DNA from: Pestalotiopsis fici W106-1
Taxonomy: Eukaryota > Ascomycota > Sordariomycetes > Amphisphaeriales > Sporocadaceae
Length of the DNA: 64,000 nucleotides
Reading direction: 5' to 3'
NCBI RefSeq assembly: GCF_000516985.1
Contig: NW_006917094.1
Coordinates: forward strand, 744,001-808,000
In this document: in pieces, positions 24,568 to 61,844 of the stretch
Numbering within the stretch: the first letter of the stretch is position 1
Layout: each line of letters starts with the position of its first letter
Made by a program: the position numbers and the translations under genes
Notes under the pieces: generated by a model
Seen by the model: only the letters and a program-made list of their open reading frames with translations
Databases searched by the model: none
Told to the model about the DNA's origin: nothing

Positions 24568-25755
24568 TCAACCTTGGTACCCCTTCCACTTCCACTGTCG
24601 AGGCGCAAATACAATCTCAAAGCTAACCTTGTCAAAGACACCCACAGCAGCACAGAGATCATGGAAACCCTCGAGCCCATTCACAGGCAAGTCCGTCTGG
24701 GCATCGAGCTCCTCGTGAAGATTCCACCTTCCGACCTCGCGGCCGTCGCGAGTATGGAAAATCTCCACGGCCCCGTCGGGCGCCAACTCCATGCCTAGGC
24801 CCACGGTCTCGCCGCGCCGAAACGGCTGCGCAAAGTCCTTGCCGCCCCACCGGTCATTGATGTACTTGCGGCCGTCGTCGCCGTGCACGCCGACGCTGCC
24901 GCGATGCCATCCCGGCAGCCGAAAAGCCGGGTATGGCGGGGCCGCAAAGCCGAGCGCAAGACTAATCTCGTGTCGACTCTCCTGGAGGATATTGACCTCG
25001 TAGTAAATGGTCTTCTTCTTTTGGGTGGCCCGGGGGCTGTGTGCTGAGACGCTGTAGAGCGGCGGGTACGAGGCAATGTGCGTGTCGCGGCATCCGGCAT
25101 AGCTGTGTCCCTTCCACACGCCCGTGCCCGTCTGCGCCAGCACGCCCTGGAAGGAGGGCGGGGTGAAGAGGTTAATGTTGCCCACCTGCAGCGCATTGAG
25201 AGCCGCGCCGTCTAGCTGCAAGGGGTTATAGAGTGGATTGCGCTGGCACCACCGTTCGCCCTCTTCGGCCTCTTCCTCTGTAGCGTTGTTGGTGGGAGAG
25301 TACTCATGCGCGCCAAAGAAGTTGGGCGGCGGCGGTAGCAGTGCAGTATCCGGCACGGCCTCCTCCCAGGCGTGCTGCTTCTTGCCATCCTGAGGCGGCG
25401 GAGGTCCCGCTGGTGGAGCGTAGTCCTGCGAAGGAGGCGGGCCCGGAGGTGCAGCATAGTCTCCTGGGTACGATTGTTTGGATGGTGGCGGACCCGACGG
25501 TGCAGCATAATCCCCTGGGTAAGCTTGCTTGGAGGGCGGCGGACCTGGAGGGGCTGCGTAGTTATCATTCTGGGCCTTCTTCGAAGATGGAGGGGGTCCT
25601 GGCGGAGCAGCAAAATCGTCCGAAGGTCCAGCAGCTTGTTGATATTGACCCTGTTGATGTGGCGGGTAAGAGCTGTTCGATGCCTTTTGCTCGGGCATTT
25701 GTGTTGGCCGAGGAGCAGATGCTCCGTCGTGCTTGTCTTGGCTGCCGAAACACAT
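24568..25755 (-). CDS. proline-rich SPRY-domain protein
   Basis: Uninterrupted 395-residue protein in two parts. Residues 1-130 are disordered and Pro/Gln-rich, with about five imperfect repeats of (Y/F)AAPPGPPPS-K-Q type, such as YPGDYAAPSGPPPSKQ; the DNA is correspondingly repetitive over about 25390-25610. Residues from about 160 form a SPRY/B30.2-like beta-sandwich: FTPPSFQGVLAQTGTGVWKG, TIYYEVNILQ, ISLALGFAAPPYPAFRLPGW, GSVGVHGDDGRKYIND and AVGVFDKVSFEIVF. SPRY domains bind proteins, and fungal Ssh4-type members recruit the Rsp5 ubiquitin ligase to membrane cargo. This protein lacks the transmembrane segment of Ssh4, so its partner is unknown. The start is the only Met that precedes the repeat region (MCFGSQDKHDG). 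Confidence 0.85.
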   Translation of the reverse strand: MCFGSQDKHDGASAPRPTQMPEQKASNSSYPPHQQGQYQQAAGPSDDFAAPPGPPPSSKKAQNDNYAAPPGPPPSKQAYPGDYAAPSGPPPSKQSYPGDYAAPPGPPPSQDYAPPAGPPPPQDGKKQHAWEEAVPDTALLPPPPNFFGAHEYSPTNNATEEEAEEGERWCQRNPLYNPLQLDGAALNALQVGNINLFTPPSFQGVLAQTGTGVWKGHSYAGCRDTHIASYPPLYSVSAHSPRATQKKKTIYYEVNILQESRHEISLALGFAAPPYPAFRLPGWHRGSVGVHGDDGRKYINDRWGGKDFAQPFRRGETVGLGMELAPDGAVEIFHTRDGREVGRWNLHEELDAQTDLPVNGLEGFHDLCAAVGVFDKVSFEIVFAPRQWKWKGYQG

Positions 25756-26983
25756 GGTGAGGTCGGTAGTGTGACTGTTGACTGGATGTAGTCAAATTGA
25801 CCGCCTTGGAGTTTGAAGCAAAGAGTGTGTTTGTGGTGCGTATATTATATGTGTATAGGCTGACGTGCAGAGATGTGCCTGGAGGCTCTCTAAAGATGGC
25901 CTGAGGCGGTTGCTAGAGACAACTGCGAATCAGAGCTAGGTTACCACGTTGCTGTCGCAAGGTGAAAGAAAAGCTGTATATTTTCGAAACCGGAAGATGG
26001 AACGGTTGGCACGGGTTGTTTGTGCGTGCGTGTGTATGAACAAACAGCTCGTGTTTGATCGTGGGGACTTTTGATGGAATGTTTCACAAGAGAGGGAAAT
26101 TGAACAAGTAAGCATAAATTCTAATCATGAGGCAAATCGAGTCCGCTTTGAGCTTATTGGGAGGCTGTGCCGGCGTCTTGGGTCTCTTGGCGGCTCACCA
26201 TGTATTCCCCTTAGTGTGTGGAATGGCGAAGTTGAGGAATCAATAGTGTGGCGGATTGATATGGTCCTCGGGTGGGAATACGTAGCTCTCTCATCAAATC
26301 CCCGTCGGTGCTTGATGCTGTTTACCGGTTTTGCTCAGCCTCCCTCCTCAGCGATGTTAGCAAGTCCGGATGCGATGAATGCATGACCCCGCTAATCGCG
26401 TGTGACGTCTCGGTCTTGGCCACTATTAGCGTGAGGCGTCAACCTCTTGAGTCCTTCGGCACGCCGTTTCTCGAAGACTTCTAGAATATTGGACATTGAG
26501 CGAATAACCCAGGGCTGTGATGCTTCAATTTAATGGACTGCCTCAAAAGCTCCGCGCGAGTCAATCGAGTTCAGCCATGAAGAGAGAGCCTATAAGGATA
26601 ATAACCAACCAACAAGTCAAGACTAGCAAGAATCACGCACTTTCTGTTTTCAAAAACTTTTGTGTAAATATTGACAAACATTATATTTCAGCTGCATGCA
26701 ATGTTGGGCATGCCTAAGGGCCAAGTTGGCTGGCGGGCCTTGGGTATAATCAGTGTAAAAAAAGACACAATTTGCTGCTGCTCTCCCTCCTCCTACTTCG
26801 CCACCAATTCATCCACCACAATTCATCAGCAAGAAAGCACACGTAGCTCATATCTAGCTGTCGTGTCTACCACAAGAAACGAAAAAGGGGAGGCGTTTGC
26901 CACCACCAAGACGCACCAATGCTTCTGTCACCCTTGTCACAGAACAGCATATAGTGCCACCAAGACTCTCTGACACATTTGTG
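25756..26983. other. intergenic region
   Basis: Twelve hundred bases between two minus-strand genes: promoter of the SPRY gene and 3' UTR of the Ca2+/H+ exchanger. No supported gene. Confidence 0.5.
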
Positions 26984-44854: not shown

Positions 44855-45410
44855 TCAAGCCAAGAGCGTCAACAGCCCGACGATTGCTCCCGAAAGCGGC
44901 AGGGTCAGTCGAGCCACGTTGAGGTACGACCATTTCGTAACCAAGCCCCGAACTCTATCTTCGCTCATGGTCTTTGTTTGGCTGTGCGCCGCTGCCGAGA
45001 GCTCGTTATTGACCGGCAGCAAGACTGCCATGGTGAAGGGGATGGCGGCAACCGTCAGCAGTCCGGCCAGCGCAAAGCCTCGCCAGTGTGGCGATGCCTT
45101 TGCGTACTGGCTATACGAAACCGAGCTGTAGCTCAGCGCTGATAGCAAGGCCACAGCTGGAACCGCCTTTCCATTGTTGTAGATGATCCACCATTGCTTC
45201 AGCATCACACTCGGGGATCCGCCTCCTCCCAGAACCGCGGGGATAGCTGAGATGGAAAATCCCGCCATTGCTCCTATCTCAATAATCTGTATTAGTATGA
45301 ATGCAGATTGTTTTTCTGCACCTTCTCGAGTTTTGTTACGTACCTGCTGCCATTGCAGAGCCGACGACGCCTGTAGACGCAGCAAAGGTTAGGCCCGGTG
45401 ACAAGAACAT
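44855..45410 (-). CDS. DUF1772/anthrone-oxygenase-like membrane protein
   Basis: Two exons, 45410-45344 and 45273-44855, give 161 residues. The 70-nt intron has a GTACGT donor, CTAAT branch site and GATAG acceptor; using GATAG rather than the CAG 13 nt earlier keeps the frame and yields a continuous SAMAAGAMAGFSISAIPAVL helix. Four hydrophobic segments fit the DUF1772 fold, with a W-x5-NNGK-type loop (KQWWIIYNNGKAVPAVALL), the conserved PVNNEL after TM3 and a final hydrophobic helix. Family members include AflX/HypC-type anthrone oxygenases of polyketide pathways, but most are of unknown function. There is no polyketide synthase nearby, so a role in secondary metabolism is not supported by context. 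Confidence 0.78.
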
Positions 45411-61559: not shown

Positions 61560-61844
61560 TTACTCCTGTCCCTTGTGCAGCTGGGGCACTCCGTGGGCGT
61601 CAATGGGCGCTGGCGGCTCGGCTCTCTTGCGGCGAGCATCTCTGTGCTTTTGGTCCTTTTCTCCCTCGGTGTGGAGCTGGGGTACGCCATGAGCATCGAT
61701 GGGGGCAGGAGGCGAGGCTCTCTTGGCTCGGGAATCTTGGTGATTGGTGTTTATTTCGATGAGTGTCCCATCACCCAGAGGCACCGTGGCGGCCATGGTG
61801 AAGCCGAGCGTCATGCTGGCAAATATAACTTTTGTGAAATGCAT
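61560..61844 (-). CDS. secreted Kex2-processed repeat peptide precursor (KEP/RiPP-like)
   Basis: Uninterrupted 94-residue precursor. MHFTKVIFASMTLGFTMA is a signal peptide, followed by a pro-region (ATVPLGDGTLIEINTNHQ). Two near-identical 16-residue units follow: ASPPAPIDAHGVPQLH at residues 43-58, preceded by DSRAKR, and AEPPAPIDAHGVPQLH at 75-90, preceded by DARRKR. Lys-Arg before each unit is a Kex2 cleavage site, so processing would release two peptides with A-x-PP starts; the last ends KGQE at the stop. There are no Cys, so it is not a disulfide-rich effector, and it does not resemble Sordariomycete alpha-pheromone cores (WCxxxGxxCW type). The plan matches fungal KEX2-processed repeat proteins, some of which are RiPP precursors; no DUF3328 or tailoring gene is visible beside it. 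The peptide's role is unknown. A shorter start at Met11 would truncate the signal peptide. Confidence 0.78.
   Translation of the reverse strand: MHFTKVIFASMTLGFTMAATVPLGDGTLIEINTNHQDSRAKRASPPAPIDAHGVPQLHTEGEKDQKHRDARRKRAEPPAPIDAHGVPQLHKGQE

Follow-up and report, generated by a model that had tools for sequence, protein, structure and literature searches.

A putative Kex2-processed precursor with two copies of a 14-residue core in Pestalotiopsis fici

Layout of the putative precursor gene

The window analyzed here is a stretch of 64,000 nucleotides from the genome of Pestalotiopsis fici (51.7 Mb in 20 contigs), a member of the Sporocadaceae, Amphisphaeriales, and Xylariomycetidae. On its minus strand, a complete ORF of 94 codons plus a stop codon runs from position 61844 to position 61560, and the plus-strand reading of 61560–61844 does not contain the repeat that is seen on the minus strand. 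An earlier note on this DNA, in which the strand was not given, had placed at exactly these positions a 94-residue protein with a hydrophobic N terminus and two near-identical units, each preceded by a Lys-Arg site. The ORF agrees with this description, as it contains two exact copies of PPAPIDAHGVPQLH and the two Lys-Arg sites, RAKR and RRKR, are both of the R-x-K-R form (Table 1).

Table 1. Features of the precursor ORF (window positions)
Feature	Residues	Position	Strand	Basis
94-codon ORF with stop		61560..61844	-	Three simple donor motifs sought, no matches
Hydrophobic N terminus, probable signal peptide	~1-19	61788..61844	-	Hydropathy; cut point inferred
Pro-region, last four residues RAKR	20-42	61719..61787	-	Sequence
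Kexin-type site 1, R-A-K-R	39-42	61719..61730	-	Sequence
Core copy 1, PPAPIDAHGVPQLH	45-58	61671..61712	-	Codon comparison with copy 2
Linker, TEGEKDQKHRDA	59-70	61635..61670	-	Initial residues poorly conserved compared with the other unit
Kexin-type site 2, R-R-K-R	71-74	61623..61634	-	Sequence
Core copy 2, PPAPIDAHGVPQLH	77-90	61575..61616	-	Silent differences from copy 1 in 10 of 14 codons
C-terminal tail, KGQE	91-94	61563..61574	-	Sequence

Both units follow the same plan, in which R-x-K-R and the predicted cut are followed by A-[S/E] and then by the core, with Ala-Ser ahead of the core in unit 1 and Ala-Glu in unit 2. The repeat period is 32 residues (96 nt). Two further elements recur with it: His-x-Asp-x-Arg-x-Lys-Arg ahead of the core, and a Glu at the fourth residue beyond it. 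The core has no Tyr, Trp, Phe, Cys, or His-His, which is in line with the Cys-free peptide and Tyr-free core of the earlier description.

The best 10-residue hydropathy of the precursor N terminus is 1.99, which places it in the top 9.7% of 175 Met-initiated ORFs ranked by hydropathy only, and secretion is probable. The protein prediction for this gene in the database begins at Met17, a start at which the hydrophobic segment would be lost. A single-sequence AlphaFold model of the precursor was poor (mean pLDDT 63.9), and an N-terminal helix is absent from it. When three simple splice donor motifs were tried within the coding sequence, there were no matches. A TATA-like stretch ∼40 nt ahead of the precursor ATG was set aside, because its distance from the start is ambiguous.

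Divergence between the repeat copies

When the two copies of the 42-nt core are compared, there are 10 synonymous and 0 non-synonymous differences, all of them at third codon positions. In a simulation of random sets of ten substitutions, the core protein was left intact in 0 of 200,000 sets at each of four transition biases. Because the core was picked as identical in protein sequence, a 76-nt repeat defined on DNA alone provides a fairer test. This repeat contains 20 differences, 13 of which are at third codon positions. Of the synonymous sites in its 25 codons, 12.5 out of 18.5 differ (sd/S 0.68), compared with 7.5 out of 56.5 for non-synonymous sites (nd/N 0.13; P = 4e-5 in a one-sided Fisher test on rounded counts). 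The third-position bias argues that the repeat is old, that it has not been recently homogenized, and that the protein has been under selection.

Based on the silent-only divergence of the core and the low nd/N relative to sd/S, the ORF is very probably translated and its 14-mer is very probably important, and the two core copies appear to have been kept identical by selection even though their DNA has diverged. This evidence for selection comes from one repeat pair in one gene, as no relative was found, and it is internal to the precursor since each copy serves as the control for the other. The same silent-divergence test is applicable across fungal genomes, where it could point to real two-copy peptide genes that have no homologues.

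The repeat within the precursor exceeds chance. Among window frames of 40 or more residues, identical 8-mers with at least five different letters recur in four, namely the precursor, a frame with a SPRY domain, a Cep57-type frame, and a 120-residue frame antisense to the latter; among frames of the same minimum length, none recur in the 50 kb to the right of the window or in 10 Markov-resampled windows. The SPRY-domain frame has 407 residues (24571-25791 of the window, minus strand) and contains YPGDYAAP at residues 91 and 108.

The synonymous codon usage score of the precursor is 0.065, compared with 0.002–0.2 for 14 neighboring frames, and a score at least this high is found in 9 of 215 open frames of 80–140 residues. 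Two other frames over the same stretch score 0.050 and 0.048, and the precursor frame is thus poorly separated by this measure. Codon usage, which is weak evidence here, is compatible with coding.

Relatives and genomic surroundings

The precursor had been described as an orphan, and no recognizable relative was found in the databases searched (5.77 billion proteins, its own genome, and viral and prokaryote contigs). With the 94-residue protein as query, the protein database returned its own prediction as the only relative out of 3 candidates. An artificial 268-residue query of repeated units found no longer relatives among the best 7994 candidates by shared words. The same database includes Ste2 proteins from P. 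fici, Neopestalotiopsis, and other Pestalotiopsis, so an annotated orthologue of the precursor would probably have appeared and an unannotated one would not. “Orphan” here therefore means without an annotated relative, based on protein searches plus the DNA of the fungus's own genome.

A search of that genome with the precursor gave one match, the precursor itself, and no paralogue. There are 53 near-matches of DAHGVPQ in the genome compared with 35 for the reversed control, and two of the 53 are the cores. The six places with one mismatch, the group whose context was examined, were rejected as relatives, since they lie in unrelated frames with no kexin sites beside the match; the other 45 have two mismatches. 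A frame at C2:239022-239042 contains DGHGVPQLN, core-like letters with no adjacent kexin sites, and is probably a chance occurrence. The Pleosporales-type motif PYGxPxG had no matches in the small part of the genome that was searched for it. Pattern matches in viral contigs (9) and prokaryote contigs (130) included no relatives, a Pfam scan of the precursor protein found no families, and five words of the core are absent from the 5.39 million published papers searched, a coverage that excludes supplementary tables. The single match in the PDB, a ribosomal protein (E 0.44), was dismissed as chance.

For the surroundings, Pfam scans covered 37 frames picked from the longer ones, 23 in the window and 14 in the adjoining 50 kb on the right. 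In the window, these scans identified Tom37, sugar transporter, exo/endonuclease-phosphatase, SPRY, Na/Ca exchanger, MFS, Cep57-type, DUF7514, GNAT, Zn-cluster factor, L18A, BTB, and anthrone oxygenase families. In the right flank, they identified a CAF1B/HIR1 propeller, an ABC transporter, an aspartyl protease, WLM, PAS and histidine kinase domains, MMM1-type, PIP5K, and IF4E families, and an AMP-binding enzyme. None of the remaining scanned frames has a family above the Pfam threshold, and no RiPP tailoring family, methyltransferase, or tyrosinase was found among the 37 frames. The earlier note had proposed inspecting the right flank for DUF3328, methyltransferase, or peptidase genes; its 14 scanned frames are ordinary genes or have no family. 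The anthrone oxygenase frame (PF08592) is at 44858-45388 of the window on the minus strand, and there is no obvious biosynthetic cluster among the scanned window frames. In the flank itself (C4), a run of 100 N at positions 961-1060 is a possible assembly gap.

A genome-wide search for UstYa/DUF3328 gave 51 exon matches, 48 of them above the family cut-off. The only one on the contig of the precursor is 324,459 bases away, which upholds the statement in the earlier note that no DUF3328 gene is visible nearby. UstYa-type exons are clustered at C1:6662381-6669948 and C10:223256-241187, which are possible dikaritin-type gene clusters. The genome also contains a kexin gene with S8 and P domains (C11:969906).

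Proposed products and alternative explanations

Our preferred explanation, in which we have moderate confidence, is that the gene encodes a secreted, Kex2-cut prepropeptide, and that its product is most probably a linear, unmodified peptide that signals extracellularly to the fungus itself, and not a cyclic toxin. The putative signal peptide would send the chain into the secretory pathway, kexin would cleave behind RAKR and RRKR, and Kex1-type trimming would then take off the basic ends, releasing two linear peptides, ASPPAPIDAHGVPQLH-TEGEKDQKHRDA and AEPPAPIDAHGVPQLH-KGQE. Cutting at KR would yield a 32-mer from unit 1, or a 28-mer once its basic end is trimmed, and a 20-mer from unit 2, so the earlier expectation of 16–20-residue products does not fit unit 1. 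The computed [M+H]+ values are 2091.06 for the 20-mer, 3001.49 for the 28-mer, and 1448.76 for the 14-mer, with 1606.83 and 1648.84 as two further candidate masses.

These two products would have their first 16 residues in common save for the Ser/Glu difference, and their tails are unlike. The shared 14-mer would be the active part and may be read by a specific partner, which is proposed because silent sites have turned over and 0 of 14 residues have changed. Conservation falls just past the final His, suggesting either that the tails are cleaved off by a second protease or that the target reads the N-terminal part alone and ignores them. The mature C terminus is ambiguous, since neither core has KR immediately behind it. 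A linear product is favored because the core has no Tyr and UstYa is not nearby. Action on the producing fungus through a receptor is a candidate chosen among several options.

The precursor resembles the Kex2-processed repeat proteins (KEPs) in its hydrophobic N terminus, its pro-region, its repeated 14-residue core after KR sites, and the presence of a genomic kexin with S8 and P domains; dibasic sites (RAKR and RRKR) precede both of its repeats. It differs from them in having two repeats, a long unit 1 linker, and no dibasic site straight after the core. The two published KEP surveys (PMC6339444 and PMC7329392) both demand at least three repeats, and PMC7329392 considers repeats of 8 or more residues between kexin sites. 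The precursor mechanism is thus KEP-like with one repeat fewer than these surveys require, and two-repeat precursors as a group sit under the cut-off of both. According to PMC7329392, most KEP types occur in a single genus, and of 7878 KEPs, 2560 stand alone, so the “new class” that the earlier note had raised is too strong. Instead, the precursor is apparently a lineage-restricted instance of a broad, already known type of fungal peptide precursor.

It is unlikely, although the best placed of the alternatives, that the peptide is host-directed and belongs with the Kex2-cut apoplastic effectors that contain repeats. Pestalotiopsis is known for plant association, and the closest relative of the encoded Ste2 is that of P. 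fici, a species of this plant-associated genus. In Ustilago Rep1, the number of repeats exceeds two. Kex2-cut effectors of this type do exist, as described in PMC8528282, and the precursor resembles Rep1 and these repeat-containing effectors in plan, through its kexin-cut secreted repeats, but it has fewer repeats. Mimicry of plant CLE peptides was ruled out: the core has 3 identities to CLE 12-mers, and this number was attained by 17,462 of 20,000 shuffles.

A slightly smaller chance is given to an alpha-type mating pheromone, that is, a Ste2 ligand in a lineage without the usual Cys-containing form. The Cys-containing W-C-x3-G-[Q/E]-x-C form is usual in Sordariomycetes. It is doubtful, to the same degree, that PPAPIDAHGVPQLH, perhaps trimmed to IDAHGVPQLH, is a Cys-free alpha-type Ste2 ligand in Pestalotiopsis and perhaps in some other members of the subclass. 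The genome does encode Ste2, with a single match (C2:261724-262647, 181 bits) that has 95% identity to P. fici Ste2 in the protein database and 75–79% identity to the Ste2 proteins of Neopestalotiopsis clavispora and of two further Pestalotiopsis isolates. Xylariales is a sister order that has its subclass in common with Pestalotiopsis. PMC7407469 describes the receptors of Xylariales as distinct and their MAT regions as divergent or missing.

The precursor is like those of ascomycete alpha-pheromones in its prepro plan, its kexin sites, and its short repeated peptide, which in alpha-pheromones has 9–14 residues (PMC10569646). The central Gly of the core is also found in most Ceratocystidaceae alpha-pheromones, which have one to thirteen copies per gene (PMC13037118). 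Unlike these precursors, it has no Cys or Trp motif in its core and no KR straight after it, and the dipeptide right behind the kexin site is AS or AE, not the Ste13 form XA or XP, with PP and AP coming next. In addition, Pestalotiopsis is among the 14 genera of one published KEP type (PMC7329392), which also argues against this explanation.

Among the places examined with five motif patterns, the genome contains no tandem, KR-flanked precursor of the Cys type, but such patterns miss other sequences, introns, and variants. None was found at the 11 of 11 places for C-x3-GQ-x-CW (reversed control 1), at the 20 of 20 places for WC-x3-G-[Q/E/K]-x-C (control 4), at 10 of 14 places for G[Q/E]PCW (control 12), or at 15 of 47 places for a variable-spacing Cys pattern (control 12), and WC-x3-G-[Q/E/K]-x-CW has 0 places (control 0). 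The tested codon is a stop at 4 of the WC-x3-G-[Q/E/K]-x-C places and the tested reading is present at 16, some with a stop elsewhere; one place follows KR, and it is single and overlaps a 534-residue frame on the opposite strand. The closest two variable-spacing places are 19.8 kb apart and therefore are not tandem copies. Beyond the examined places, the variable-spacing pattern has 32 more, 20 of which are in frame as judged by length, and G[Q/E]PCW has 4 more. Three of the Cys-type patterns outnumber their reversed controls (11 versus 1, 20 versus 4, and 47 versus 12), which weighs against this explanation. The 14-mer supplies a concrete synthetic peptide candidate for Ste2.

It is improbable that the gene encodes a dikaritin-type cyclic RiPP precursor whose UstYa and tailoring genes are located elsewhere, and a linked dikaritin-type RiPP is unlikely. 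The overall plan, a secreted repeat precursor with KR sites, is that of the ustiloxin, phomopsin, and asperipin precursors (dikaritins, or ust-RiPS), but the precursor differs from these in having no nearby UstYa, no core Tyr, and no visible tailoring genes, with zero methyltransferases or tyrosinases in the 37 neighboring frames. PMC7329392 places DUF3328 genes near 22% of 7878 KEPs, at a mean of 3.09 genes, compared with the 324 kb that separate the precursor from the sole UstYa match on its contig; in the same survey, nearly all mating factors are without a nearby DUF3328. In three of the seven abundant KEP types linked to DUF3328, His-His or Trp with Pro stands in place of Tyr (PMC7329392), but the core also has no His-His or Trp. 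For the RiPP with unlinked tailoring genes that the earlier note had suggested, the UstYa genes elsewhere in the genome are the one positive finding.

Least probable of all is that the ORF is an untranslated, chance open frame on a DNA repeat, which would fit the recovery of its own prediction alone from 5.77 billion proteins and a codon usage near that of two other frames in its stretch but not the bias of the repeat differences to the third codon position (P = 4e-5).
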